Below, piece after piece: positions 1,979-33,792 of a DNA stretch of 42,505 nt. A program made the position numbers and the translations under genes. This stretch comes from a virus. The notes under the pieces were generated by a model. That model had not been told where the DNA came from and ran no database searches. It worked only from the letters and a program-made list of their open reading frames with translations. Location of the stretch: positions 1 to 42,505 of the IMG/VR virus record IMGVR_UViG_3300033146_006236; one strand, 5' to 3'. The first letter of the stretch is position 1, and every line of letters starts with the position of its first letter.

Positions 1979-3634
1979 TTACATCCTCACATCAACAAAA
2001 ATACTTGATTTCTTATCGTTTTTAAGCCAGTAACAGCCTTTGTCTAAGGCATCGGTACTGTGTGGTGCGGTTCGTTGGTCTGCTTTTAGTTTCCTTTCAA
2101 GCGATTTGTCTTTTTTCAGTTCGTTTCCTGCTTGCTTGGCTTTTGTGTCTTTCATCGCAATGACAAGGTACTTGCAATTGTTCCCATCAATGCGAATTTT
2201 AAAAAGTTTGCTTTCTTTTTCACCCATAATTTTTTGCATAAGCTGCCACTTTTCGTACATGGGTGGTTCTTTGTGCCTGTGCTTTTTGGTAGTAACAGTC
2301 CAGCCCTGGGCCTTTAGTTCTTTTATGGCATCTTCATTGATTGTTTTTGATTTTTGGATGGATGTATTATCTCCGTATGTATCGCGAACAAATATAATAT
2401 TCTTGTCGTTGTGAGGCTCAAAGAAATTGGCAAATTCTTGCATTAATAGCTTAGGCATTTCACCCCCGGGCATAACATAGAATTCTTTGAGAATGTATAA
2501 AATATTGCGTTTTTTGTCGAATTGAGCTGCAAGGGTGAAGCTGATGGTGCCACCCCAATCAAAAAAAAGGTGGATGGGTAGGTTTGGATTGTAATATTTT
2601 CGGCTTAAAATATTGCTTTGGCGTTCGTTTAATTTTGAAAAATCAAAACCTGTTGAAATTGCCAGATCGTTTGTAAAATCATCATCCCAGCTATCGTAAT
2701 ATACGTGAATATCTTCATTTAGCGCATAGAAACTATTCTCATTGAGGGTAAGAATCATATTCATAATCTCAATAAGGAATATGATTTCCGGTAGGCGTTT
2801 GCGCTGCGATTTGATGTATGACAAACCAACATTTTGCCAATTATCAACAGCGTTTGAAAGAGTAAATAAAGTAGTACCTTCTTTATCTTTATGTAGCAAT
2901 GGTTTCATTTTTCTGCGGATAAGCTGGATCTCATTCCATTGGCGTGCAAATTCTTTTTCATTTTCAATATCCAATAAATCAATCTGCATTTTTACAACTT
3001 GCCGCCACAGACTGAAATAATCAATACCATATTCTTCTAAATAATAGTTGCCCTTATCCAAAATCCAACGGCTCTGCTGCGTGTAAGGCATTGATGTTGA
3101 ATGATACTCGCCTAAATGCCAATCTACATTATATTTGCCCTTATTTGCACGTAAAGTTGGTGATAATTCATTATCCAGGCGTTGTTTGTCTAGCCGCAAG
3201 GTTTCATCTGTTAAAAGAAAATCTGTATTAGGACCACGCCCAGAACCAACCAATTGCTGTGAGGCCAAATAAAAACCAACAGGGCGATCAGAATTAAAGA
3301 AAGTAATGTAGTTAGAATAATCTTTTACAGGGGCATTGATAGGCGTGCCCCATTCTTTTGGCGGTTGTTTGCCAATTACATAATGAACATCACGCAGGTA
3401 GCCCATCCGCTCTAAATGTGCGAAAGCTGATGGTAGAATAGAAGTAAGTACATGGGTTAAAGTTCTGGCGGCAATTATGCCTGAGGCACCTGGTAAATGT
3501 TGAACAATTTGGTGAAGCTGATGGCCAAAATAGGTTGATTTACCAAACCCCCGGCCTGATACCATAAAATTGTACTTTGGCTGAAGTATGGATATAGCTG
3601 TTTGAAATGGATTAAATGACAGGTTTTGGATCAT
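1979..3634 (-). CDS. terL: Terminase large subunit (packaging ATPase-nuclease)
   Basis: 551 residues, normal size. The ATPase has a Walker A motif GRGFGKST (residues 27-34) and Walker B FLLTDE (139-144, catalytic Glu144). The C-terminal RNase H-like nuclease has D358 in a D-W-G-G motif, D417/D421 in V-R-D-T-Y-G-D, and H524 with D527 and D530 in H-S-T-D-A-L-D. It translocates concatemeric DNA into the prohead through the portal and cuts it. It is last in the head/packaging operon, 3 bases after the DUF5662 gene and close to terS. About 990 bp without a credible gene follow. Portal is at the other end of the window, fitting a circular map. Confidence 0.95.
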   Translation of the reverse strand: MIQNLSFNPFQTAISILQPKYNFMVSGRGFGKSTYFGHQLHQIVQHLPGASGIIAARTLTHVLTSILPSAFAHLERMGYLRDVHYVIGKQPPKEWGTPINAPVKDYSNYITFFNSDRPVGFYLASQQLVGSGRGPNTDFLLTDETLRLDKQRLDNELSPTLRANKGKYNVDWHLGEYHSTSMPYTQQSRWILDKGNYYLEEYGIDYFSLWRQVVKMQIDLLDIENEKEFARQWNEIQLIRRKMKPLLHKDKEGTTLFTLSNAVDNWQNVGLSYIKSQRKRLPEIIFLIEIMNMILTLNENSFYALNEDIHVYYDSWDDDFTNDLAISTGFDFSKLNERQSNILSRKYYNPNLPIHLFFDWGGTISFTLAAQFDKKRNILYILKEFYVMPGGEMPKLLMQEFANFFEPHNDKNIIFVRDTYGDNTSIQKSKTINEDAIKELKAQGWTVTTKKHRHKEPPMYEKWQLMQKIMGEKESKLFKIRIDGNNCKYLVIAMKDTKAKQAGNELKKDKSLERKLKADQRTAPHSTDALDKGCYWLKNDKKSSIFVDVRM

Positions 3635-6501: not shown

Positions 6502-6509
6502 AAAGGACA
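6502..6509 (-). promoter_or_regulatory. TGTCCTTT box, candidate late promoter element
   Basis: One of four minus-strand (T/A)GTCCTTT boxes found 26-58 bases before late operon starts (others at 9728-9735, 31387-31393, 42338-42345). No normal TTG/TAnnTTTG pair with proper spacing is seen here. It lies between the terminator at 6515-6532 and the 300-residue gene, so a new transcript must start or read through here. Confidence 0.35.
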
Positions 6510-6514
6510 AAAAA

Positions 6515-6532
6515 AGCCCCGTCTCCGGGGCT
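6515..6532 (-). terminator. Intrinsic terminator after the capsid operon
   Basis: AGCCCCG (6526-6532 side on the minus strand) pairs with CGGGGCT around four bases, followed on the minus strand by seven T. A textbook rho-independent terminator 45 bp after the 303-residue virion gene. It separates the protease-capsid unit from the packaging unit. Confidence 0.85.
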
Positions 6533-6576
6533 GAATCAATAAAAACTAAAACCAAAAAATCTACTATGGAAGCATA

Positions 6577-14217: not shown

Positions 14218-14512
14218 TTACTACATTGGGTATGCTCAAAGCCGCTACTGGCGTGGCCTGTAGCCAATGTAGTAAACTAAACTTAACATTGGTAAAGAAG
14301 CGGCTGTAAGCCTTGCTGCTGTTGGGCTGTGTAGTAATGTAGTAAGGTTTTTAATTACTACATTGGTACAATCAACTACTACATTAGTTATATAACTAAT
14401 TAATACGCTAATGTAGTAAATGTAGTAAAATGTAGTAAGAAAAAGCTTACTACATTGTTTTAATTAATTGAAAAACAGTAATATACATTACTACTGTGTA
14501 GTAATGTAGTAA
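14218..14512. repeat. Array of 11 TGTAGTAA repeats, candidate origin (iterons)
   Basis: Exact TGTAGTAA lies at 14268, 14330, 14338, 14412, 14421, 14431, 14497 and 14505, and its complement TTACTACA at 14218, 14355 and 14447. Near-copies start at 14376 and 14488. Copies cluster head-to-tail with 8-10 bp spacing, as iterons do, in AT-rich DNA without genes. The array sits between the replication operon and the late operon promoter. Most likely a replication origin or a large regulator-binding site; the binding protein is not known. Confidence 0.6.
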
Positions 14513-14593
14513 ATATAGTAGGTTTGTATTTAATTTTAGATTTTAGATTGAAAATTTCAGATTGAAATTTAAGCCGCTAATGCACTAATAAAA

Positions 14594-22390: not shown

Positions 22391-23194
22391 ATGGTAAGAA
22401 CAGTAGTATTTAGTGCCTTTTTTATATTGCTATTATTTGGATGCAAATCTGATGAAGAAATTAGGACTGATGGATTAAAAAAACAGGTAACAAATATTTT
22501 TTCAGGAAGTTATGTTAAGTGGGATGTTGCATTAAAAAGAGGGATGGAAATTAATATGGACATGGATAGCATCCAAAAAGTATTATATGTTTTAAAAGAT
22601 AAGGATCCTGAATCAGCAATAGAATATGCAAATCAAATAGACAGTATATTAAATATTGCTATTTCAGAAAATGAGTTAAAAACAAAGAAAGCACAAAAAG
22701 AAAATCTTAAAAAAATTAAAAAAAAGATAACTAATCTCAAACGAAAATTTTTATATCAAAAAGATGAATTTGAAAATATAGGTTTTTATACTCATAAAAG
22801 ATTCGGAAAAAATTGGGCTAACAGAAAAACATTGACCGTAGGGCTGAATTCTACAGGATATATATATTTGAAAAGTAATTATTATAGTACTGATTGGCTA
22901 TTTCATAATAAAGTGTTGGTAAAAATAGGCGAAAATAAATATGAAACTGCAACTGTAGAAAGGTATAAAGATAATTCAAGAACGAGTAATTCAGGCGGGC
23001 ATATATGGGAAGTTATTACATATGAGAATGAAGAAAGGATTATTGGATATATTGCTAATAGATTTAATGAAAAAATATCTATAAGGTTTGTTGGCAGTAA
23101 ATATCACGATGATGCTGTTCTTTCCTATAAGGACAAAATTGCAATAAAAGAAAGTTATGAGTTAGCTGAATTGTTGGAAAACCTAAATAATTAA
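22391..23194 (+). CDS. Lipoprotein co-transcribed with the repressor, candidate superinfection exclusion
   Basis: 268 residues from the ATG at 22391 (a GTG at 22385 overlaps the repressor stop). The signal peptide M-V-R-T-V-V-F-S-A-F-F-I-L-L-L-F-G-C ends in a lipobox with Cys18, so it is a lipid-anchored exported protein. The rest is rich in Lys/Glu helices (about 60-125) followed by strands (about 130-235). It directly follows the repressor and so should be made in lysogens. Many phages use surface lipoproteins to block reinfection or alter the host surface; that role is inference. No named family. Confidence 0.7.
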   Translation: MVRTVVFSAFFILLLFGCKSDEEIRTDGLKKQVTNIFSGSYVKWDVALKRGMEINMDMDSIQKVLYVLKDKDPESAIEYANQIDSILNIAISENELKTKKAQKENLKKIKKKITNLKRKFLYQKDEFENIGFYTHKRFGKNWANRKTLTVGLNSTGYIYLKSNYYSTDWLFHNKVLVKIGENKYETATVERYKDNSRTSNSGGHIWEVITYENEERIIGYIANRFNEKISIRFVGSKYHDDAVLSYKDKIAIKESYELAELLENLNN

Positions 23195-25083: not shown

Positions 25084-25362
25084 ATGAATTATAGTTCTAA
25101 TATTGAATATTTCAGGAAGTTACGAGGATTTACAAAAGATGAATTATACAAAAGATCTGGTGTTTCTAAATCTGCTTATATTTATGCATTTAATAATAAT
25201 TCTTTCACCACAAAATCACTAGAAAAGCTAGCCAAAGCACTAGATGTTTCAGTAATTGATTTGGTGAAAGATAAGGGGGCTGATGAAAACAAAGCTGCCT
25301 TGGATGATATGAGCGAAATAAAAAAGAAATTGGATGATTTTGAGGAAAAGCATTTGAAATAA
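25084..25362 (+). CDS. XRE-family regulator of the membrane-protein operon
   Basis: 92 residues. The HTH domain covers residues 5-62 (I-E-Y-F-R-K-L-R-G-F-T-K-D-E-L-Y-K-R-S-G-V-S-K-S-A-Y-I-Y-A-F-N-N-N, then L-E-K-L-A-K-A-L-D-V-S-V-I-D-L-V), followed by a charged coiled coil for dimerisation. It is divergent from the 452-residue membrane protein across three operator repeats, so it most likely represses both directions. A fourth near-match of the operator (25521-25534) lies in the promoter of the next operon, which it may also control. The stop is followed by the twin-RNA terminator of the left cassette. Confidence 0.8.
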   Translation: MNYSSNIEYFRKLRGFTKDELYKRSGVSKSAYIYAFNNNSFTTKSLEKLAKALDVSVIDLVKDKGADENKAALDDMSEIKKKLDDFEEKHLK

Positions 25363-25421
25363 AAAAAGCCCCTGCATTTCTGCCGGGGCCGTGTCAATAA
25401 GCCATTTTAATTAAAAAACGA
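25361..25421 (-). ncRNA. Candidate small RNA, left cassette copy
   Basis: On the minus strand TATATTTG (complement of 25427-25434) matches the -7 element. About 6 bases on, a conserved stretch follows (G-T-C-G, T-rich, AATTAAAATGG, CTTATTGACAC). The RNA would end in a hairpin (GCCCC, mismatch, GCA, GAAA loop, TGC, mismatch, GGGGC) and seven U. The right cassette has the same RNA with a differently spelled but equally paired hairpin. No TTG lies at -33, so an activator or weak promoter must be assumed. It is convergent with the XRE gene. The GACAC segment is complementary to the leader of the linked acidic gene. Confidence 0.5.
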
Positions 25422-25485
25422 CTCCACAAATATACTACATTTTCAGCCTCTCTTATTTAGAATCATTATAAATAAGCCTTTTTTT
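25391..25485. repeat. 95-bp cassette, left copy (inverted to 33670-33764)
   Basis: 92 of 95 positions match the reverse complement of 33670-33764. It contains the conserved RNA core, the TATATTTG element and the 23-bp palindrome at 25453-25475 (TTATTTAGAAT, C, ATTATAAATAA). The three differences lie between the TATATTTG element and the palindrome. It sits upstream of the acidic-protein operon at 25587. Confidence 0.9.
25453..25475. promoter_or_regulatory. AT-rich palindrome in left cassette
   Basis: Half sites TTATTTAGAAT and ATTATAAATAA mirror each other at 10 of 11 positions around a central C. It lies 19 bp upstream of the TATATTTG element of the small RNA, covering the -33 region, so a protein bound here would control that RNA. 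The layout resembles a Fur-type box, but identity of the binding protein is unknown. Confidence 0.55.
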
Positions 25486-25516
25486 ATGTATTTCTTTAAA
25501 ATAAGTGTCCTTTTAT

Positions 25517-25547
25517 TTGGACAGTATTAAAATTATGCCTACTTTTA
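25517..25547 (+). promoter_or_regulatory. Promoter of the acidic-protein/HTH operon
   Basis: TTG (25517-25519), 20 bp, TACTTTTA (25540-25547), then the leader GTCAATAAG…AATTAA before the ATG at 25587. Between the two boxes lies ACAGTATTAAAATT (25521-25534), one mismatch from the three XRE operators at 24994-25071. Confidence 0.6.
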
Positions 25548-25586
25548 CATCGTCAATAAGTTATTAATTAATTAAAATTTAAAACG

Positions 25587-26009
25587 ATGAAAAATTTAAA
25601 AAACACCAGCGTATCAGTAATTGAAAAAGGAATTGAAACTTCAAACAGATTTGAAAACAACATTCTTGCAATTTTCAAAGAAAATGCAAGCTGGATTAAT
25701 GTTAATATTAAGCATATAGCCCTTTGGGATGTTTCTTTTGGGAATACTGGTTATGGCAGATTTCGCAGGGCAGGTCGAGGCATTGAATTAATTATTGAAG
25801 GTGAGCGTCCATCTAACACTATAGACGGAGATATTGACGAGTTTGAAGAAACATTTAACTTGAGCGAAACTATTGAGTCTTATGATATTGATGCGCTTAA
25901 CGATTTAGAATATGGTACAACAACATATTCTAACGAAATGAAAAGAATAACTTTGAAATTAGTAGAAGATGAAATAGATAATATTATTGAAACCCTTAAT
26001 GAAGAATAA
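25587..26009 (+). CDS. Acidic protein of a two-gene accessory operon, candidate anti-defence
   Basis: 140 residues, no membrane segment. N-terminal 60 residues hold a helix and I-A-L-W-D-V-S-F-G-N-T-G-Y-G-R-F-R; the C-terminal half is strongly acidic (D-G-D-I-D-E-F-E-E-T-F, E-D-E-I-D-N-I-I-E-T-L-N-E-E). Its stop overlaps the start of an HTH gene (TAATG), the order seen in anti-CRISPR (acr-aca) loci. It lies downstream of a promoter cassette shared with the other accessory operon at 33582. No known family, so the anti-defence idea is context only. Confidence 0.6.
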   Translation: MKNLKNTSVSVIEKGIETSNRFENNILAIFKENASWINVNIKHIALWDVSFGNTGYGRFRRAGRGIELIIEGERPSNTIDGDIDEFEETFNLSETIESYDIDALNDLEYGTTTYSNEMKRITLKLVEDEIDNIIETLNEE

Positions 26010-26305
26010 TGATACAAAAAGAAATTTTAAAAAAAGCCCGGCAGCAAGTCGGGCTTTACATTGCTGATATAATGCAGCAACGAGGAATTAATAAAAAACA
26101 ACTTGCTGATAAAGCAGGGGTTAAGCGTGATGCTATTTATGCTATTTTGGATGGAAGTAAAGCATATACAATTGATACTTTCCTTCAAGTAATACAAGCC
26201 CTTGATTGCTATTTCTTCCTTTCTGACAAAGAAGGTGAACACCTCAACTTTGAACATATGGAAGAAAAGTCAGACCCAGGCAAGGCCATGGATTTTAAGA
26301 AATAA
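26009..26305 (+). CDS. XRE-family HTH protein, Aca-like position
   Basis: 98 residues. HTH domain at about 17-70: I-A-D-I-M-Q-Q-R-G-I-N-K-K-Q-L-A-D-K-A-G-V-K-R-D-A-I-Y-A-I-L-D-G, then I-D-T-F-L-Q-V-I-Q-A-L-D-C-Y-F; a short acidic/basic tail follows. The ATG overlaps the stop of the acidic gene, so translation is coupled. It ends directly at a strong terminator. By analogy with aca genes it would repress the operon promoter; it may equally be an antitoxin. Confidence 0.75.
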   Translation: MIQKEILKKARQQVGLYIADIMQQRGINKKQLADKAGVKRDAIYAILDGSKAYTIDTFLQVIQALDCYFFLSDKEGEHLNFEHMEEKSDPGKAMDFKK

Positions 26306-26309
26306 AAGA

Positions 26310-26335
26310 AAGCGGCAATTGCCGCTTTTTTTTTG
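26310..26335 (+). terminator. Intrinsic terminator of the acidic/HTH operon
   Basis: AAGCGGCAATTGCCGCTT is a perfect palindrome followed by a run of T. It lies 5 bp after the HTH stop. Ends the accessory operon before the integrase region. Confidence 0.85.
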
Positions 26336-26432
26336 TCTATATTTGTTAAAGTATTATAGCTAATATAAAATAATTGTTAAATTAGTTAGTAAATGAGATT
26401 TGGAAACTGTATAAAGGTTTGATATTAGGGAT

Positions 26433-26489
26433 GTTAACTAAAAGCGGTGTAAAACCTTCGGGTTCACAAAAAAACCGCAACTAGTTAAC
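26433..26489. other. Structured element upstream of the integrase (RNA or attP candidate)
   Basis: Outer arms GTTAACTA (26433-26440) and TAGTTAAC (26482-26489), inner GCGGT (26444-26448) with ACCGC (26474-26478), and a central AACC-TTCG-GGTT stem with a stable UUCG-type tetraloop. It lies just before the terminator at 26501-26535 and next to the integrase. A short structured RNA or part of attP are both reasonable. Confidence 0.4.
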
Positions 26490-26500
26490 TATTAACGATA

Positions 26501-26540
26501 AACCGCCCATTATCAAGCAATTGATAGGGGCGGTTTTTCT
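26501..26540 (+). terminator. Strong terminator directly upstream of the integrase
   Basis: AACCGCCC (26501-26508) pairs with GGGCGGTT (26528-26535), with TATCAA and TTGATA forming an inner stem; five T follow. It insulates the integrase from upstream transcription. Two tandem AGTTACTAAAT units (26556-26577) fill most of the space to the integrase start. Confidence 0.8.
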
Positions 26541-26585
26541 GTTTTTTAAGCAAAAAGTTACTAAATAGTTACTAAATGGTTTTTT

Positions 26586-27743
26586 ATGAAGGTAAGTGTC
26601 TCAATTAATGATAGTTACATAAAAGAAAATAAAACATGTTTAATTTACCTCCGTATCTTCCTGAATAAGAAGTACTTAAACGTACCCCTTGAAATATCAG
26701 TTAATCCTGATCATTTCGACAAAAAAAAACAGAGATTATTTAAAGGGCCTTTCAAAATAAAATACAACCACATTATTAACGATGCAATTGGCAGGGCTTC
26801 TAACATAATTTTAAAATATCAATTCAATAAACAAACCCTGACCAGGGATGTTTTTACGAAAGAATTTACCAACCCTGCTGTATTCCTCGATTTTTATGCT
26901 TTTATGGATGATCAAATTAAAAGCCGTAACGGTGAAATAACTGAAACATCTGCTAAACAACATATGAGTATTTTAAATAAAATGAAGAAATTTAAAAAAG
27001 AGCTGCTTATTGTTGAATTAGATGAAACTTATTTAAAGGCTTTTCAGAAATATTTAAAAAATAAGCTAAAAAATAATCCGAATACAATACACAACGCCTT
27101 AAAAACAGTTCGAACATACATAAATATTGCTATTAAACTTGAACTTATAACAAAATCGCCGTTCAGGCACTTTAAATTTAGGCGTGAAGCTACTTACCCG
27201 GTGTTTTTGACCGAACCGGAACGCAATAGTTTGATGGATTTGTACAGTTCGAACTATTTACCGTACAAATATAAAAATGTGTTAAGGTGGTTTTTGTTTT
27301 CTTGTTTTACAGGGCTACGGATCGGGGACTTAAGAGCTGCAAAACATGAAGATATTTCAAACAAAATGCTTTATTTTCGACCTCAAAAAACGAAAAATGT
27401 AAACAACAAACGTGTTGATGTACCTTTGACAAAATTTGCCTTGAAACTTATTAACGATGAAAACCCGAATAGGATAAAGGGATTATTATTTGACTGCTAT
27501 TCGGAAGCCCGGATGAACAAAAACATAAAAGAGGTTATGGCGGTTGCTAAAATTGATAAGGATATTAGTTTCCACAATGCCCGTCATACTTTTGCTACTT
27601 TGTTTTTGAAAAAAAGCGCAAAAGCAAACGGGATATTGATATTACAACGTCTGCTTGGGCATTCTAACATTGCTACAACAATGGTATATTCGCACGTAAT
27701 TGATGATGATATAAGGTCTGCTATGAATGAGTTTGATTCTTAG
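26586..27743 (+). CDS. int: Tyrosine recombinase (phage integrase)
   Basis: 385 residues, the usual size. N-terminal arm-binding domain (about 1-95: V-S-V-S-I-N-D-S-Y-I… L-N-V-P-L-E-I), core-binding helical domain (about 98-205), catalytic domain with R245 (T-G-L-R-I-G-D), K268, H330-x-x-R333 (H-N-A-R-H-T-F-A-T), H359 (L-G-H-S-N) and nucleophile Tyr368 (M-V-Y-S-H). All catalytic residues are present, so it should be active in integrating the phage circle. The stop overlaps that of the tape-measure gene tail to tail, so the integrase lies inside the phage map, not at an end next to host DNA. Confidence 0.95.
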   Translation: MKVSVSINDSYIKENKTCLIYLRIFLNKKYLNVPLEISVNPDHFDKKKQRLFKGPFKIKYNHIINDAIGRASNIILKYQFNKQTLTRDVFTKEFTNPAVFLDFYAFMDDQIKSRNGEITETSAKQHMSILNKMKKFKKELLIVELDETYLKAFQKYLKNKLKNNPNTIHNALKTVRTYINIAIKLELITKSPFRHFKFRREATYPVFLTEPERNSLMDLYSSNYLPYKYKNVLRWFLFSCFTGLRIGDLRAAKHEDISNKMLYFRPQKTKNVNNKRVDVPLTKFALKLINDENPNRIKGLLFDCYSEARMNKNIKEVMAVAKIDKDISFHNARHTFATLFLKKSAKANGILILQRLLGHSNIATTMVYSHVIDDDIRSAMNEFDS

Positions 27744-30700
27744 AACCCACTATATTTCATCCTAATTATTTTTTCTTCATCATGTTCGGTCAAATCATCA
27801 TCTGTGATTACTGCACGTAAATATTTTAAATCGGCAACAGATTTGGTCATTTCTGCAATATTTGTTGCCATAAGCTCAATTTTATCATTCATTTGTTTCG
27901 CCCCTTCTGTATCAACCTGGTTAATTACAGTATTGTTGTTGCTTACAACTGTGTTGCCGCCTTGTTTCCCTGCAATTGCTTTTTCCATACCTGAAAAGTT
28001 TGGGCTTTGTGGCCTACCCAGGAACTGGGGTTGTTTCCCTTCCTGTACCCTTGCCAAATCATCGGCAATTGGCCCTAATGTTTTGCTTTGCACAATGCTT
28101 GACGATAGCACAATTTCGGGGCCTGCTTCACCAATTTCAGCTATGGTACGCTTATTTACACGTGCACCTTTCCCATAAGAAGGGATAGGTTCTGAGTTGA
28201 TTGCATCAATTTGTTTTTTTGTTTTAATTAATGCAAAAGCCGACAAAAGCCCTGCATAAATGGGGTTTGCAGCCCATTTGCCCCAAATGTTTGCAAGTGC
28301 TGAAAACATATTCATTGTTGCATCATATTTTTTTAATTGTTTTTCTCTTTTTGCTTGTTTGGCTGCAACACGTCCTTTTTCCCTGTCCAAATCGGCATCA
28401 ATTACCTTTATTTGGCTGTTATAATATTTTTCAGAAATAAGCCCAGCATCTAATCTTTTTTGCAAGGTTTTTTTCTTTTTGTCAGAATTTTTCTCGTAGC
28501 TCGCAAGTTTTGCATTTTCTTGGTTGTTTAATTTTTGGTTGTTTAATGAAAAAATATTGCTTAATTCACCTGCAATTGTCATTGCTTTATTAACATTTTC
28601 ATTAAGCAATTCCCAGTCTTCCGGGGTCATCCCAAAAATATCGGTTGGCGCTTCATCTCCATTTTTGATAGCCTCAATTTCGGCATTCATTTTTTTAACA
28701 AGCTCAACGGTGCTTATTTTATAATCCTTTGCCTTATCAATTAATTCCTTGTATTTTTTAGTTACCTGATGTATTTCTTTTTGAGTCCCATCCATCAAAA
28801 TTTCATCAACTTTGCCCTGAAACTTTATCTTTTCATCTTCAAGTTTTTTTGCAAAATCCTGTTCCGATTTCAAAAATTCATTATTCCTTGCATCAACAAG
28901 CTGGTCTCTTTGTGCGAAAAATTTATTCAACAAGTCAAGTTCATCATCATTTAGTTTGCCTTTTTTTGCCCGAATTTCCTCAAAATGAGCTATTGAGTTT
29001 TCAACTGCTTGAAACTGATCATCATATTTATCAATAATGTTTTCAATTGCTTTTTCTTCTTCGCTTAAATCAGCAAGGTTAAATTTACGGCGGATACCTA
29101 AAATAATTTTACGGAGCTGTTCATATTTTTTGGCATATTTTTCTAATGGGTCAGTTTCTTCTTCTCCGCCGCCACCAGAACCACCCCGGCCAGAATTGGT
29201 TGTTGTTGTTGTTTTTTTATTCGTTTTTTTAGATTCCTCCTCTGCTAGCGAACCGGTAAGTACATCATAAGTCGACTGCAAGTCTTTTATTTTTCCTTGC
29301 AATTTCGCTATACCTGCCATCCGCTGTGTCATATTGCCCCCTGTGAGGTTGTCTAATATTACATCGCCATATGATTGTGGCAAGTCTTCTGTTTGCTCTT
29401 TTAGTTTTTCCTGCAGTTCAACAATTTCTTTATATATACCAACGGCTTTTTCTTCTTTAACTTGAAGTTCTATTTTTTTCCGGATAGCGTTATTTATTAA
29501 ATCATAAGCAGCGGCAATATCTGTTAATGATGCATTTTCATCAAGTAAATTAGGCAGGTAATCTCCATAACTTACATTTATTTCTTTAATAAGTTTTTTT
29601 CTGTCTTCATTTGTAATATTTGTATCACCGATCCTTTTTTTAAGCACTTCTAATTTTACAGCTTCATCGCCCATCCGCTTATTAGTTTCTTTAACAATCT
29701 CGTTTTGAGCTTTTTGTAAACTGTTAAGACCTAGCAATGTATCTTTGAAAATCACTATTGCGACACCTGCAGATACAATAGCCGCCGCCACTAAACCCCA
29801 TGGGTTTGCTTTCATTGCAATATTCAACATTCGTTGAGCTGCTGCTGCCCTTTTTGTGTTTCCTGTTAATTTTGCCTGAGTCAGGGCAGCCAACAATTGT
29901 GACTTTCGCAACAAATTATTTTTAAGGATTATTAAATTGGTCCATGCAGCATTAGCCTTTAAGGCCAAATTATATGAAGTAATTGCAATAACAACCAAGG
30001 CAATAACTTTTGCAAGAAATTTTATTGTTTGTGAATTTTCCTCAATCCAGGCTACAGCACTTACAAGGGAATCAACTAAGCCTTCAATTGCATTCTTAAC
30101 ATTGCTATTCATCCACAATTTTACCCAGGCTTTTTTAAGCTTATCAAGTTTTGCAGCTAAATTTTCGTTTTTGATATTGTATTCATCTGTCAAGCTTGAA
30201 CCTTTTTCAAATTCGACATTGGCAAGTTCCTGCTGTTCCCTTAACAAATCAATATTGCCTGCAAGTGCTGGCAGTACCTGTGCGGCCTGTACTCCTTCAA
30301 CACCTAAATTCTCTAATGTTGCCGATAGCCCTGCAACACCTTGCTTTGTGCTTTTTGCACCTTCCAAAACCTTTAACATTGCCTCGTTTGCATCGGTTTC
30401 AAGCAATTTAGAGTATTCTTTAACAGATAAACCAGCCAATTTTGCAAATTTGGAAACGCCTTTTTTGTCGCCTAAAGCAATAAGGAATTTGGCCATTGAA
30501 CTACTGGCAACCTCTTGTTTTTTTCCTAAAATGTCCATTGTTGCGGCAAGCCCTAGAACATCCTGCATGCTGATGTTTGCATTTTCGGCCAAACCGCCAA
30601 ACCGCTGCGTAAATGCCACAAGGTATTCTTCGCTTGCTACTGATGCTGCGCCAAGGCTGTTAATTGCAGAGCCTGTTTTTTCAAAAGCCGTTGCGGTACC

Positions 30701-31333
30701 GTAAACTTCTTCGATATTAAACAATTCGTTAAGCTTACCTAGCTGCTTAATTGCATCAAGGCCGCCTAAATCTTCACCTAATGCAACTACCAGCTTGTCG
30801 GCTGCACCAACAAATTCTAAAACTTCTTCTTTGCTGTTTTTGCCTAGTTTACCTGCAATTGCGGCTAAGTTACGTAGTTCGGAAGTTGGTGTACGGGTGT
30901 CTATTTTTGAAAGGCTGCCGTTTAATTCGTCAACCTCTTTTGCTGTCAGTCCTGTGGTTTTCTGTATATCAGCTAATTGATCAGACAATGAAGCTGCACC
31001 GGATATTAAGCCAGTAAATGCGCTGCCTATATTTTGAACAGCTGATGTTATCATGTTGCCAGCAACAAATGCAAGCGATGTTGATTTGAATTCGTTTTTG
31101 ATTTTTGTCCAACCATTTGCAACCTGCCCTTGTTGTTTCCTGTGCTGATCCATTAAGCCTTGCAATTGCTTAAGTTTTTTTGTTTGTGCAAGGTATTCTT
31201 TGCTGCCAACTGTCATATTTGCCAGTTCGTTGCGGGCTTTTCGCATTGATGTCCAGATACCTTTATAGGTATTTTCGACCTGACGGCCATTTATCCAAAT
31301 ATTTATTTTTCGGGTAGTGCTCTTGTCTGCCAT
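27740..31333 (-). CDS. Tape measure protein
   Basis: 1197 residues. N-terminal coil, then a TP901-type tape measure core (about 95-400: S-A-F-T-G-L-I-S-G-A-A-S-L-S-D-Q-L-A-D-I-Q-K-T-T-G-L-T, repeated A-A-x-A-x-x-L-G), a hydrophobic stretch (about 455-480: F-L-A-K-V-I-A-L-V-V-I-A-I-T-S-Y-N), a second hydrophobic stretch near 520-540 and a long coiled coil at about 735-1010 with a Gly-rich spacer. It sets tail length (about 1.5 Å per residue gives roughly 180 nm, by the known rule) and is ejected during infection. The start abuts a T-run after a hairpin (31336-31374), which is unusual. Tail-to-tail with the integrase. Confidence 0.92.
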   Translation of the reverse strand: MADKSTTRKINIWINGRQVENTYKGIWTSMRKARNELANMTVGSKEYLAQTKKLKQLQGLMDQHRKQQGQVANGWTKIKNEFKSTSLAFVAGNMITSAVQNIGSAFTGLISGAASLSDQLADIQKTTGLTAKEVDELNGSLSKIDTRTPTSELRNLAAIAGKLGKNSKEEVLEFVGAADKLVVALGEDLGGLDAIKQLGKLNELFNIEEVYGTATAFEKTGSAINSLGAASVASEEYLVAFTQRFGGLAENANISMQDVLGLAATMDILGKKQEVASSSMAKFLIALGDKKGVSKFAKLAGLSVKEYSKLLETDANEAMLKVLEGAKSTKQGVAGLSATLENLGVEGVQAAQVLPALAGNIDLLREQQELANVEFEKGSSLTDEYNIKNENLAAKLDKLKKAWVKLWMNSNVKNAIEGLVDSLVSAVAWIEENSQTIKFLAKVIALVVIAITSYNLALKANAAWTNLIILKNNLLRKSQLLAALTQAKLTGNTKRAAAAQRMLNIAMKANPWGLVAAAIVSAGVAIVIFKDTLLGLNSLQKAQNEIVKETNKRMGDEAVKLEVLKKRIGDTNITNEDRKKLIKEINVSYGDYLPNLLDENASLTDIAAAYDLINNAIRKKIELQVKEEKAVGIYKEIVELQEKLKEQTEDLPQSYGDVILDNLTGGNMTQRMAGIAKLQGKIKDLQSTYDVLTGSLAEEESKKTNKKTTTTTNSGRGGSGGGGEEETDPLEKYAKKYEQLRKIILGIRRKFNLADLSEEEKAIENIIDKYDDQFQAVENSIAHFEEIRAKKGKLNDDELDLLNKFFAQRDQLVDARNNEFLKSEQDFAKKLEDEKIKFQGKVDEILMDGTQKEIHQVTKKYKELIDKAKDYKISTVELVKKMNAEIEAIKNGDEAPTDIFGMTPEDWELLNENVNKAMTIAGELSNIFSLNNQKLNNQENAKLASYEKNSDKKKKTLQKRLDAGLISEKYYNSQIKVIDADLDREKGRVAAKQAKREKQLKKYDATMNMFSALANIWGKWAANPIYAGLLSAFALIKTKKQIDAINSEPIPSYGKGARVNKRTIAEIGEAGPEIVLSSSIVQSKTLGPIADDLARVQEGKQPQFLGRPQSPNFSGMEKAIAGKQGGNTVVSNNNTVINQVDTEGAKQMNDKIELMATNIAEMTKSVADLKYLRAVITDDDLTEHDEEKIIRMKYSGF

Positions 31334-31335
31334 AA

Positions 31336-31374
31336 AAAAACGCTTAATTCATTTTAAGCGAATTAAGCGTTTTT
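31336..31374. terminator. Hairpin with T-run touching the tape-measure start codon
   Basis: AAAAACGCTTAATTC (31336-31350) pairs with GAATTAAGCGTTTTT (31360-31374). On the minus strand seven T follow and the ATG of the tape-measure gene begins at once. It terminates the accessory module or acts as an attenuator or translation switch. On the plus strand it is also terminator-like. Confidence 0.65.
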
Positions 31375-31386
31375 GTTGGTTGTGCT

Positions 31387-31393
31387 AAAGGAC
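31387..31393 (-). promoter_or_regulatory. AGTCCTTT box before the tape-measure gene
   Basis: The minus strand reads CAGTCCTTTAGC, 54 bases before the start codon, matching boxes at 6502, 9728 and 42338. It could be the late promoter that allows tape-measure expression despite the hairpin; no consensus host promoter is visible. Confidence 0.3.
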
Positions 31394-31395
31394 TG

Positions 31396-31935
31396 TTATA
31401 ATTGCATGGCAAATATAACATAAGTGTCCTTAATTTTTGACCATATTGTTATAGGGTCAGGATGTTTCCCTTTCCTGAACCTAGAAACTTGCTCTATCCC
31501 TTCGTTTCTGGAGATGTTTTTGAGCAAAGAGGAATATTTTAGAACGGGGTGGTTTAATATAATTTTTAATTTTCGTTCAGAATAAGACTGAAACGCCTCT
31601 TTTATTTCAATCTTTATTTTTTTCAATTCTGATTTTACGGCTGTCAGCTCCCTGACAGACAATGAAGATTTTCCCTTAACGACATCCGTTAATTTATTGA
31701 CCCGGATATCGCACAATTGGGATATTACATTAAGATATAGATTCCCACTATTTAATACTGCAACAATTCTTCTTTGCTGCAATTGTTCTGCTTTCGATAG
31801 CTTTTCATATTTTTGAAAATTCTCCTGAAAATACTTATCAGGTATTGAATTCCTGTTTTTCCAAACTTTCAGTATTTTTTCTGAAAGATTGTGTTTTTTA
31901 ACGATTTCTATGGCATTTTCTTCGTTGAATTTCAT
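31396..31935 (-). CDS. Helical protein at the end of the inserted accessory module
   Basis: 179 residues, basic, helical. It contains V-I-S-Q-L-C-D-I-R-V-N-K-L-T-D-V-V-K-G-K-S-S-L-S-V-R-E-L-T-A-V and later L-K-Y-S-S-L-L-K-N-I-S-R-N-E-G-I-E-Q-V-S-R-F-R-K-G-K-H, both of which look like HTH units of the XRE type with an R-x-R-K-G-K-H recognition end. No named family. Four bases after the NUMOD-type gene. A second regulator or a partner in the module is inferred. Confidence 0.5.
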   Translation of the reverse strand: MKFNEENAIEIVKKHNLSEKILKVWKNRNSIPDKYFQENFQKYEKLSKAEQLQQRRIVAVLNSGNLYLNVISQLCDIRVNKLTDVVKGKSSLSVRELTAVKSELKKIKIEIKEAFQSYSERKLKIILNHPVLKYSSLLKNISRNEGIEQVSRFRKGKHPDPITIWSKIKDTYVIFAMQL

Positions 31936-31939
31936 TTTT

Positions 31940-32695
31940 TCATTTTTTTATTAATATGATAAGATACTCTTCAATACCTATACCTGCAGCTTTAGCTTTT
32001 TTTCGCAAAGCAGTATAAGTCTTGATATCTACTCGCATATTTTTATATTTTTTTGTTTTTTCAGGAACTTTATATCTTTTGTTTTTTGAAATATAAAACC
32101 CTTTTTTTGTTAGGTTTTCGTACCTAATAGCATTAGTTACGAAACCTGTAGTTTTCCCAATATCCTCAGCACACTCTGTTATTGACGGATATTCTCCGAC
32201 CAATTCATTAATGGGGCTGAAAAGATACACCGGGACCTTCCTTTTATTTTCTTTTTTTTCTTTTTTTATAAAAACATTTTCGTAAGATAAAAGTGTTTTA
32301 TTAAAAAAAGTTTTCAGGTAAATCGCTGTCCGTACTTTTGAGGCCGAAACATTGAAGTGCGCTGCCATTACATTCGCACCACCCCACACTTTCATTAACG
32401 CCCCATCCTTAGAGAATTGGTATATGGGTTTTGATGGGGCACCATCTTTCCTCATTCGTTTCCCTTTCCCTATGTGATATTTCCCTGTTTTGTCATCACG
32501 GTACACCTTAAACCCTTCATCTGCAATTTGTTTCAAATATCTGAACGCTGTACGGTTCGAGATAGCCAAAATATTACAGATTTCTGTAATATTTGCACCA
32601 TCCCCCATAAGCTCAAACATCAACTTGATTATGTTATGAGCTGATTTGCTTGTATTCCGGGGGTCTGTATTCCCCGGTGTTATATATCTTTTCAT
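31940..32695 (-). CDS. HTH protein with two NUMOD1-like DNA-binding modules
   Basis: 251 residues from ATG at 32693-32695 (an upstream in-frame start at 32761 would overlap the previous gene wholly, less likely). N-terminal HTH (M-G-D-G-A-N-I-T-E-I-C-N-I-L-A-I-S-N-R-T-A-F-R-Y-L), then two copies of a NUMOD1-type module: I-Y-Q-F-S-K-D-G-A-L-M-K-V-W and V-Y-L-F-S-P-I-N-E-L-V-G-E-Y-P-S-I-T-E-C-A-E-D-I-G. The C-terminal segment (M-R-V-D-I-K-T-Y-T-A-L-R-K-K-A-K) is like a ribbon-helix-helix. NUMOD1 modules are known from homing endonucleases; no nuclease motif is visible here, so it may be a regulator. The ATGA overlap with the 76-residue gene confirms the start. Confidence 0.65.
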   Translation of the reverse strand: MKRYITPGNTDPRNTSKSAHNIIKLMFELMGDGANITEICNILAISNRTAFRYLKQIADEGFKVYRDDKTGKYHIGKGKRMRKDGAPSKPIYQFSKDGALMKVWGGANVMAAHFNVSASKVRTAIYLKTFFNKTLLSYENVFIKKEKKENKRKVPVYLFSPINELVGEYPSITECAEDIGKTTGFVTNAIRYENLTKKGFYISKNKRYKVPEKTKKYKNMRVDIKTYTALRKKAKAAGIGIEEYLIILIKK

Positions 32696-32922
32696 ATTAT
32701 TGCTGGGTTGTCTGCGTTTACATCGGCAATTGTCATTGCATATAGCAACGACACCCTGCACCCTGAATGCTCAAAAGGGTATCCCTTTTCTTTTACTATT
32801 TGGGACCAACGGCGTTGTGAAACTTCTAGGGGATTTTCGACATGCATAAGGCATGCCTTAATGGCGGTGTAATAGAAGACTTGACCACTTATCAAGTCTT
32901 TCACTTTTATTAGTTTCGTCAT
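32692..32922 (-). CDS. Small protein of the accessory module, unknown
   Basis: 76 residues. V-K-D-L-I-S-G-Q-V-F-Y-Y-T-A-I-K-A-C-L-M-H, then S-Q-R-R-W-S-Q-I-V-K-E-K-G-Y-P-F and S-L-L-Y-A-M-T-I-A-D. The first part looks like a NUMOD-type strand-helix unit (x-D-L-x-x-G-x-V-x-x-Y-x-x-I), related to the next gene. It ends with an ATGA overlap into that gene and starts 3 bases after the acidic gene. Confidence 0.5.
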   Translation of the reverse strand: MTKLIKVKDLISGQVFYYTAIKACLMHVENPLEVSQRRWSQIVKEKGYPFEHSGCRVSLLYAMTIADVNADNPAII

Positions 32923-32925
32923 CTA

Positions 32926-33582
32926 TTATATTTTCTCTAAAATGGTTTCATCAATATCAAACGCCTTTATATCTTCTTGACAGAGGATGGTTTCCCCATA
33001 TTTATCCTCGCTTAGAAGTTGTTGGATTAAATCTTCCAACGAGTTTATTTCGTTTTTTTCACAAAGGACAGCCCACTCGTGACGATCCCCGGGGTTTAAC
33101 GATTCGTTTGAAAATACTTGAATTAAAATGTCGTCATTTCTTCGTCCAATACTTAGGTTAGTGTTTTGAAAAATATTTTCAGATGTGTAATATGAGCCTA
33201 TAACTTCGGGTTCTTCTTGAGATTCAATCTCGTCTATTTTTTTGAAGTAACCTAATAGCGTGTCTAGGTACTCCGTTACTTCCTCTGTATCGGAATTGTT
33301 TTTTGGCAAATTATCACCAAAGTCTATCTGATAGCCTTCCATATCCGAATTAGAATCTTCACTAAGCGAAACAGAGCTATAACTGTCTGTATCGCTGATG
33401 TTGATTTCTCCGTCTAAATTGTATTGTTCTGGCTCTGCCGTAAAACACTCGTCTAGGTCATAACCGAATTTTTCGGCTTTGCTTAGGTTAAAGCAGTACT
33501 CAATTTTTATATTGTCATTCTCCATGGTTGCCCATGCGCATTCTGTTTTATTGATTGCTTCTACTTTTTCTTGAATTTTCAT
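32926..33582 (-). CDS. Strongly acidic protein, first gene of the inserted module, candidate DNA mimic
   Basis: 218 residues with Asp/Glu in large excess over Lys/Arg throughout. Residues 48-105 are almost only D, E, S, N, Y and T (D-T-D-S-Y-S-S-V-S-L-S-E-D-S-N-S-D). The C-terminal third is folded-looking (I-Q-V-F-S-N-E-S-L-N-P-G-D-R-H-E-W-A-V-L-C-E-K). No known family. Acidity of this degree is typical of DNA-mimic antirestriction or anti-defence proteins (Ocr, ArdA are examples of the principle, not homologs). It starts the operon behind the right cassette and is followed by DNA-binding proteins. Confidence 0.6.
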   Translation of the reverse strand: MKIQEKVEAINKTECAWATMENDNIKIEYCFNLSKAEKFGYDLDECFTAEPEQYNLDGEINISDTDSYSSVSLSEDSNSDMEGYQIDFGDNLPKNNSDTEEVTEYLDTLLGYFKKIDEIESQEEPEVIGSYYTSENIFQNTNLSIGRRNDDILIQVFSNESLNPGDRHEWAVLCEKNEINSLEDLIQQLLSEDKYGETILCQEDIKAFDIDETILEKI

Positions 33583-33617
33583 CGTTTTATTTTTTAAATT
33601 AATAACTTATTGACACA

Positions 33618-33660
33618 TCAAAGATACGAATAAATTACTAATATGCAAACATATTAGTAA
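33618..33660 (-). promoter_or_regulatory. Promoter with perfect operator dyad before the acidic-protein operon
   Basis: Minus strand: TTG, 19 bp, TATCTTTG, a full consensus match. A perfect inverted repeat, TTACTAATATG (33635-33645), four bases, CATATTAGTAA (33650-33660), overlaps the -33 box and the spacer. The transcript would begin with GTGTCAATAAG, which is complementary to the 3' part of the small RNA in the same cassette. Confidence 0.75.
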
Positions 33661-33669
33661 TTAATTTGC

Positions 33670-33764
33670 AAAAAAAGGCTTATTTATAATGATTCTAAAT
33701 AAGGAAAGCTGAAAATGTAGTATATTTGTGGAGTCGTTTTTTAATTAAAATGGCTTATTGACAC
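33670..33764. repeat. 95-bp cassette, right copy (inverted to 25391-25485)
   Basis: Reverse complement matches the left copy at 92 of 95 positions. It contains the palindrome 33680-33702, the TATATTTG element 33721-33728 and the conserved RNA core to 33764. Outside the 95 bp the two copies share layout but not sequence, except the GTCAATAAGTTATTAATT leader and AAAACGATGAAAA start region. Confidence 0.9.
33680..33702. promoter_or_regulatory. AT-rich palindrome in right cassette
   Basis: Identical in sequence to the left copy (TTATTTATAAT, G, ATTCTAAATAA on the plus strand). It lies 18 bp upstream of the TATATTTG element of the right small RNA. See the left copy for interpretation. Confidence 0.55.
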
Positions 33765-33792
33765 TGCCCTGCTAGAGATAGCGGGGCTTTTT
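33734..33792 (+). ncRNA. Candidate small RNA, right cassette copy
   Basis: TATATTTG (33721-33728) would start an RNA of about 60 nt. The core to GACAC is identical to the left copy. The end hairpin is GCCCTGCTA, GAGA loop, TAGCGGGGC (9 pairs, one G-U) and five U. Left and right hairpins differ in sequence but keep the stem, GNRA-like loop and U-run, which argues for a selected RNA. It converges on the 3' end of the 205-residue gene. No -33 TTG is present. Confidence 0.55.

Follow-up and report, generated by a model that had tools for sequence, protein, structure and literature searches.

In the virus record IMGVR_UViG_3300033146_006236, analysed here as one stretch of 42505 bases (the window, with a G+C content of 0.346), two control cassettes lie mutually inverted at 25363-25586 and 33583-33792, each beside an accessory gene. 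Both are predicted to produce a short antisense RNA, which would pair in trans with the leaders of the two accessory messenger RNAs (mRNAs) and whose own promoter would be repressed by Fur. This arrangement, with the divergent RNA in two copies and the Fur control included, is the best explanation of the data, and we regard it as evenly poised between right and wrong; that an antisense RNA acts here, whatever the signal to which it responds, is considerably more secure and can be called probable. The broader statement is made tentatively, namely that an iron-gated riboregulator, made up of a Fur-repressed antisense RNA and the leader that matches it, is a portable unit which this Bacteroidota phage has placed at two sites, bringing unrelated accessory genes under a single shared RNA that acts in trans.

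The gene content of the window includes an integrase, a tape-measure protein, a primase, a head protease, and repressor-like proteins. The terminase-like protein (1979-3634) shows less than 60% identity to terminases from Flavobacterium, Cellulophaga, Polaribacter, and other Bacteroidota phages, and the promoters of the window have the TAnnTTTG form known from Bacteroidota (PMC7366714). On account of the terminase matches and of this promoter form, the window is taken as a temperate phage of Bacteroidota.

The original prediction had placed two opposite-facing cassettes here, and this is borne out by the inverted-repeat arms (25363-25506 and 33649-33792), which agree at 85% over 144 nucleotides (nt). 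The core of 45 nt (GTATATTTGTGGAGTCGTTTTTTAATTAAAATGGCTTATTGACAC) is identical between the cassettes; no such match was obtained in 100 shuffles, even with three mismatches allowed. It comprises the TATATTTG promoter and the body of the short RNA, and the intrinsic terminator comes after it. The claim of a conserved core therefore stands, but the core had been described too short, as the conserved block runs further upstream and includes a palindrome of 23 base pairs (bp). In the alignment of the two cassettes from the accessory start codon to the terminator, the leader, the 23-bp palindrome, the outward TATATTTG promoter, and the RNA body are kept, while the stretch with the accessory promoter and operator is not. 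What the two sites have in common, as read from this alignment, is a module and not a gene, because the control parts are conserved while the accessory promoters and proteins differ. The exact sequence GTCAATAAG is present four times in the window, always within the cassettes (twice in the leaders and twice, as the complement, in the 3' part of the RNAs). A transposon with terminal inverted repeats was ruled out, since the phage's own integrase and tape-measure genes lie between the two cassettes; a short peptide (M-A-Y) within the core is too short to weigh.

Predicted folding gives the RNA the same layout in both copies, with a 10-bp 5' hairpin, the single-stranded AUUGACAC, and the terminator hairpin (fold z-scores of -5.7 for the right RNA and -4.1 for the left). 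The 5' hairpin has three G-U pairs, and therefore forms in the RNA and is not a palindrome of the DNA. The distance from TATATTTG to the intrinsic terminator is ~37 nt in both copies. The combination of TAnnTTTG with a terminator within 15-120 nt is found four times in the window (two of these are the cassettes), versus 0.1 ± 0.37 in simulated sequence. The outward promoter element and the terminator originally claimed for each cassette are both present, the former as an exact TAnnTTTG, while the two terminators pass a strict scan in the right orientation. The covariation claimed between the terminators is weak, since it involves two sequences with two pairs changed on both sides, and 131 of 500 shuffles are as good (not significant); the left stem, moreover, had been drawn as intact, with the omission of a G-A mismatch that breaks one pair. 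With so few sequences and changes, and with one left pair broken, the covariation carries no weight. The 5' hairpin and the Fur-type palindrome had both been missed.

The pairing between the RNA and each leader begins near the predicted start of the leader and ends at the AUG. The limits of the complementarity are those of the predicted transcripts: the RNA takes part between its start and its terminator, the leader between its start and the AUG. An antisense RNA should show such limits, whereas a DNA binding site or a duplication arisen by chance should not. The duplex energies are -25.4 (right) and -26.0 (left) kcal/mol versus about -8 kcal/mol for shuffles, none of which is as good (0 of 1000), a distance of 7 standard deviations; the complementarity to both leaders is thus confirmed and is longer than had been described. 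Ranked by duplex energy among 51 leaders, the two accessory leaders stand on top. After subtraction of the RNA-folding cost, the net energies are -17.6 and -13.2 kcal/mol versus -1.7 ± 1.7 kcal/mol for the 49 other phage leaders, the best of which reaches -8.6 kcal/mol. The accessory leaders are weakly folded (unstructured or nearly so) and, with the mRNA start as predicted, include GUGUCAAUAAG; in respect to the exact complement of the RNA, they show insertions or deletions and C-to-T changes that preserve G-U pairs. Of the readings considered, the antisense RNA is the best supported, given the complementarity at the transcript ends, its strength far above that of other leaders, and the conservation of RNA and leader; the terminator covariation adduced in its favor falls away.

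The palindrome, TTATTTATAATGATTCTAAATAA, is located 18 nt upstream of the small-RNA promoter TATATTTG. The window holds two exact copies and a weaker one, against 0.11 expected for the set of three. The weaker copy (1293-1315) lies in a non-coding stretch of ~1 kb and is followed by AGCTGA, as in the cassettes, and is perhaps a cassette remnant. At 17 of 19 positions the palindrome matches ATTTAGAATTATTCTAAAT, the Fur box predicted in Riemerella anatipestifer (Flavobacteriia); binding of the Fur of that species to four promoters was reported from electrophoretic mobility shift assays (PMC5609570). The identical 23-mer, in the same orientation, is found on a Hymenobacter plasmid, 3 nt before the TACCTTTG promoter of a TonB-dependent receptor gene. 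The palindrome upstream of the RNA promoter is thus probably a Fur-type operator, and its position suggests that Fur would repress the RNA. No Fur-family match was found within the window, and therefore the host Fur is the likely reader of the palindrome.

The exact palindrome TTATTTAGAATNATTCTAAATAA is present in at least 120 stretches of viral contigs, with a usual spacing of 11-14 nt before TAnnTTTG where a promoter is seen, and often upstream of apparent structural genes (their identities were judged from the sequence starts and two annotated phages, not from family scans). In Polaribacter phage Freya_1, two sites are exact and a third carries two mismatches, versus 0.00 expected (sites of TTATTTAGAATNATTCTAAATAA are located, for example, at 14265-14287 and 22525-22547), and the gene of this phage at 4082-4510, adjoining the terminase, is annotated as ferric uptake regulator family. 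In a Fur-family scan of 50 phage records, only Danklef_1, a relative of Freya_1, matched; ~46 of these records had been chosen via the palindrome, and the 50 include two tape-measure relatives with no palindrome in the stretch examined and two records with chance 16-mer matches. It is possible that phage late genes are under iron or Fur control. Among the palindrome promoters examined, the two of the window are the only ones followed by a short, terminated transcript that contains no open reading frame.

The cassettes, the promoter and terminator matches, the complementarity, the fold, and the motif match are results of computation; transcription, the exact start sites, repression, the binding of Fur with its direction, and the host identity are inferred. 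Each cassette would be a divergent control region. The outward TATATTTG promoter would give an RNA of 63-65 nt ending at the intrinsic terminator, and a separate inward promoter would give the accessory mRNA with a leader of 34-36 nt. The single-stranded AUUGACAC of the RNA would first contact the mRNA at its 5' end (GUGUCAAU), after which the 5' hairpin would open and a duplex of ~30 bp would cover the leader up to the start codon, blocking translation and probably exposing the mRNA to RNase III. Because both RNAs carry the same antisense part, each could silence both operons in trans. With sufficient iron, Fur would be bound, the RNA off, and the accessory proteins made; with scarce iron, the RNA would be on and the accessory proteins off.

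In respect to relatives of the small RNA, a 23-mer of it has no further match in viral contigs. The matches of a 16-mer to viral contigs, and those of a gapped pattern to species genomes, are ascribed to chance, as judged by sequence resembling ordinary coding DNA. The DNA search of 97 related records returned short matches only, of which the best (E value 6e-4) is promoter-like sequence without the remainder of the cassette. The leader pattern is found in two contigs with one same sequence, which is not leader-like. A covariance model of both RNA copies, run against 100 sources, recovered only those two and weak matches; the third match (6509-6564 of the window) overlaps a terminator. No Rfam family matches the window at gathering score. 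The Bacteroidota genomes were covered by one exact-pattern search only, and the collections searched may omit records of this phage and very near ones.

Several observations weigh against the Fur-controlled antisense RNA. Its promoter is without a TTTG -33 element, and plain duplex energies down to -22.9 kcal/mol are also obtained with AT-rich stretches in other parts of the window. The collections searched yielded no homologue of the RNA, the phage lacks its own Fur, and the 18-nt gap between palindrome and promoter differs from the commoner 11-14 nt of other phages. That gap, and the presence of the palindrome before structural genes of other phages, which do not form an obvious iron regulon, would agree with an antisense RNA whose palindrome serves another regulator or acts on the accessory promoter, iron not being the signal. 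We consider this rather unlikely, though with appreciable weight, as the palindrome is at least 50-60 bp from the accessory -7 elements, yet just upstream of the RNA promoter, and matches both the Fur box and the TonB-receptor promoter. Of the 50 scanned records, moreover, a Fur-family gene is found only in Danklef_1, which makes a host protein the natural candidate for reading the palindrome.

Two further explanations dispense with the RNA. The four exact copies of GTCAATAAG are also direct repeats around each accessory promoter, and helix-turn-helix (HTH) proteins are encoded beside the left cassette; the direct repeats GTGTCAATAAG...AACGA (distal and at the accessory start site) might thus bind a looping regulator, for instance the HTH protein of the left operon, with the outward promoter and terminator as incidental insulation. 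Such a DNA element is improbable, because the similarity extends over ~30 nt and is bounded by the start codon and by the ends predicted for the transcripts. The repeat, moreover, lacks palindromic symmetry, the operator-like inverted repeats at the -33 elements differ from it in sequence and position, and the RNA hairpin needs its G-U pairs. Equally improbable is a degenerate duplicated leader, with the control region copied together with the leader and the outward strand functionless. The leader and core are alignable, and for this reason a duplication at some time is likely; however, the core is fully identical while the adjoining accessory promoters have diverged, where a functionless copy should decay first, and it is equipped with a promoter and a terminator. 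The argument from core identity would lose force if a gene conversion had taken place very recently.

Table 1. Features of the two cassettes and of the adjoining accessory genes (positions in the window; ends of the small RNAs are predicted).
Feature	Position	Strand	Basis
Left small RNA, ~65 nt	25361..25425	-	promoter + terminator, fold
Right small RNA, ~63 nt	33730..33792	+	promoter + terminator, fold
Right small RNA, parts: 5' hairpin; single-stranded AUUGACAC; then terminator	33731-33756; 33757-33764		
Left -7 element TATATTTG of small RNA	25427..25434	-	exact TAnnTTTG; consensus PMC7366714
Right -7 element TATATTTG of small RNA	33721..33728	+	sequence match
Left intrinsic terminator, GAAA loop, one G-A mismatch, 7 U	25368..25390	-	terminator scan
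Right intrinsic terminator, 9 pairs, GAGA loop	33766..33787	+	terminator scan
Left leader, complementary to small RNA up to start codon	25551..25586	+	duplex -26.0 kcal/mol, net -13.2
Right leader, complementary to small RNA up to start codon	33583..33616	-	duplex -25.4 kcal/mol, net -17.6
Fur-box-like palindrome, 23 bp, left copy	25453..25475	.	motif match
Fur-box-like palindrome, 23 bp, right copy	33680..33702	.	motif match
Left accessory promoter TTTG-N20-TACTTTTA, -7 box imperfect	25516..25547	+	sequence
Right accessory promoter TTTG-N19-TATCTTTG (full promoters of this form in the window: five)	33619..33649	-	
TGTCC-N8-GGACA inverted repeat over left accessory -33 element	25506..25523	.	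0.43 expected
Perfect 12-bp inverted repeat over right accessory -33 element	33634..33661	.	0.00 expected
Left accessory acidic protein, 140 amino acids (aa), isoelectric point (pI) 4.4, no family	25587..26009	+	
HipB/HigA-like HTH protein, second gene of left operon	26009..26305	+	
Right accessory acidic protein, 218 aa, pI 4.05, no family	32926..33582	-	

The two accessory proteins, both acidic (Table 1), are not similar to one another, are each known from a single gene copy, and have no relatives in viral contigs, phages, or plasmids; their single-sequence structure models (predicted local distance difference test scores of 41 and 52) are too poor to use. None of the genes adjoining the cassettes can be assigned to susC by a match in Pfam, PHROGs, or NCBIfam. 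The right 12-bp inverted repeat is a probable operator rather than a chance occurrence, while the left TGTCC-N8-GGACA repeat is a possible operator and possibly due to chance. The acidic orphan and the HipB/HigA-like HTH protein of the two-gene left operon (25587-26305) might act together, either as toxin and antitoxin or in anti-defence. Between the tail genes and the right accessory gene, a basic HTH protein (31940-32761) shows weak NUMOD1 and homing-endonuclease matches. Elsewhere in the window, the non-coding stretch 14219-14520 has repeated TACTACATT / AATGTAGTAA units resembling an iteron array and is a possible replication origin, and the non-coding stretch 1560-1740, with TACTTTTG, a GCAACAATAC...GTATTGTTGC hairpin, and a terminator-like end, possibly encodes a further small RNA.

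In the type I toxin-antitoxin system IstR-1/tisB of E. coli, a divergent small RNA has 21 nt complementary to the 5' untranslated region of its target, and a LexA site is present at the locus (PMC4147584). The predicted phage RNA is likewise divergent from its target within one control region and complementary to the leader, with a repressor-type site at the locus; an antisense RNA gene adjoining its target and complementary to the mRNA leader is a feature that it shares with type I systems. Unlike in IstR-1/tisB, the predicted targets are acidic proteins of 140 and 218 aa and not a short hydrophobic peptide, and the leader is paired as far as the AUG. There are, moreover, two copies for two genes, and the repressor-like site adjoins the promoter of the RNA, not that of the target. 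The phage RNA is not counted as of the IstR-1 kind, because in size and hydrophobicity its targets differ from type I toxins, among which SymE (113 aa) is a known size exception. The DonS RNAs of Bacteroides (78-128 nt), divergently encoded antisense RNAs of polysaccharide loci, overlap susC homologues in cis and lower the expression of the adjoining operon (PMC7366714). The phage RNA would similarly be an antisense RNA of Bacteroidota, divergently encoded beside its target operon, but unlike DonS it overlaps neither its target nor a susC gene.

RNAs of the RyhB type are repressed by Fur, so that their targets are apparently activated by iron; iron limitation induces these RNAs as Fur binding is lost, and they act on mRNAs for iron-using proteins. 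The phage RNA resembles them, at the motif level only, in the Fur-type operator at its promoter, but it has no sequence relation to RyhB and its predicted targets are phage accessory genes. The sar RNA of phage P22 (~70 nt) pairs over the translation start and overlaps its target in cis; the RNA described here would also be phage-encoded and pair over a translation start, but it comes from a module that has a Fur-type operator and is present as a dispersed pair. Its predicted layout is that of IstR-1 and its predicted control logic that of RyhB, and we assign it to neither. In the literature searched, no small RNA controlled by Fur was found to be described for Bacteroidota or for any phage.

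If the proposed mechanism is true, a phage ties its accessory genes to the iron status of the host through a small RNA, and the virus may silence two accessory genes under iron scarcity. The Fur-box palindromes at structural-gene promoters would make iron control of the development of Bacteroidota phages directly testable. The model genus of Bacteroidota has no obvious Hfq or ProQ (PMC7366714), and the promoter, RNA, and leader, if they act as proposed, would also constitute a natural two-copy module in which chaperone-free pairing over a whole leader could be studied.

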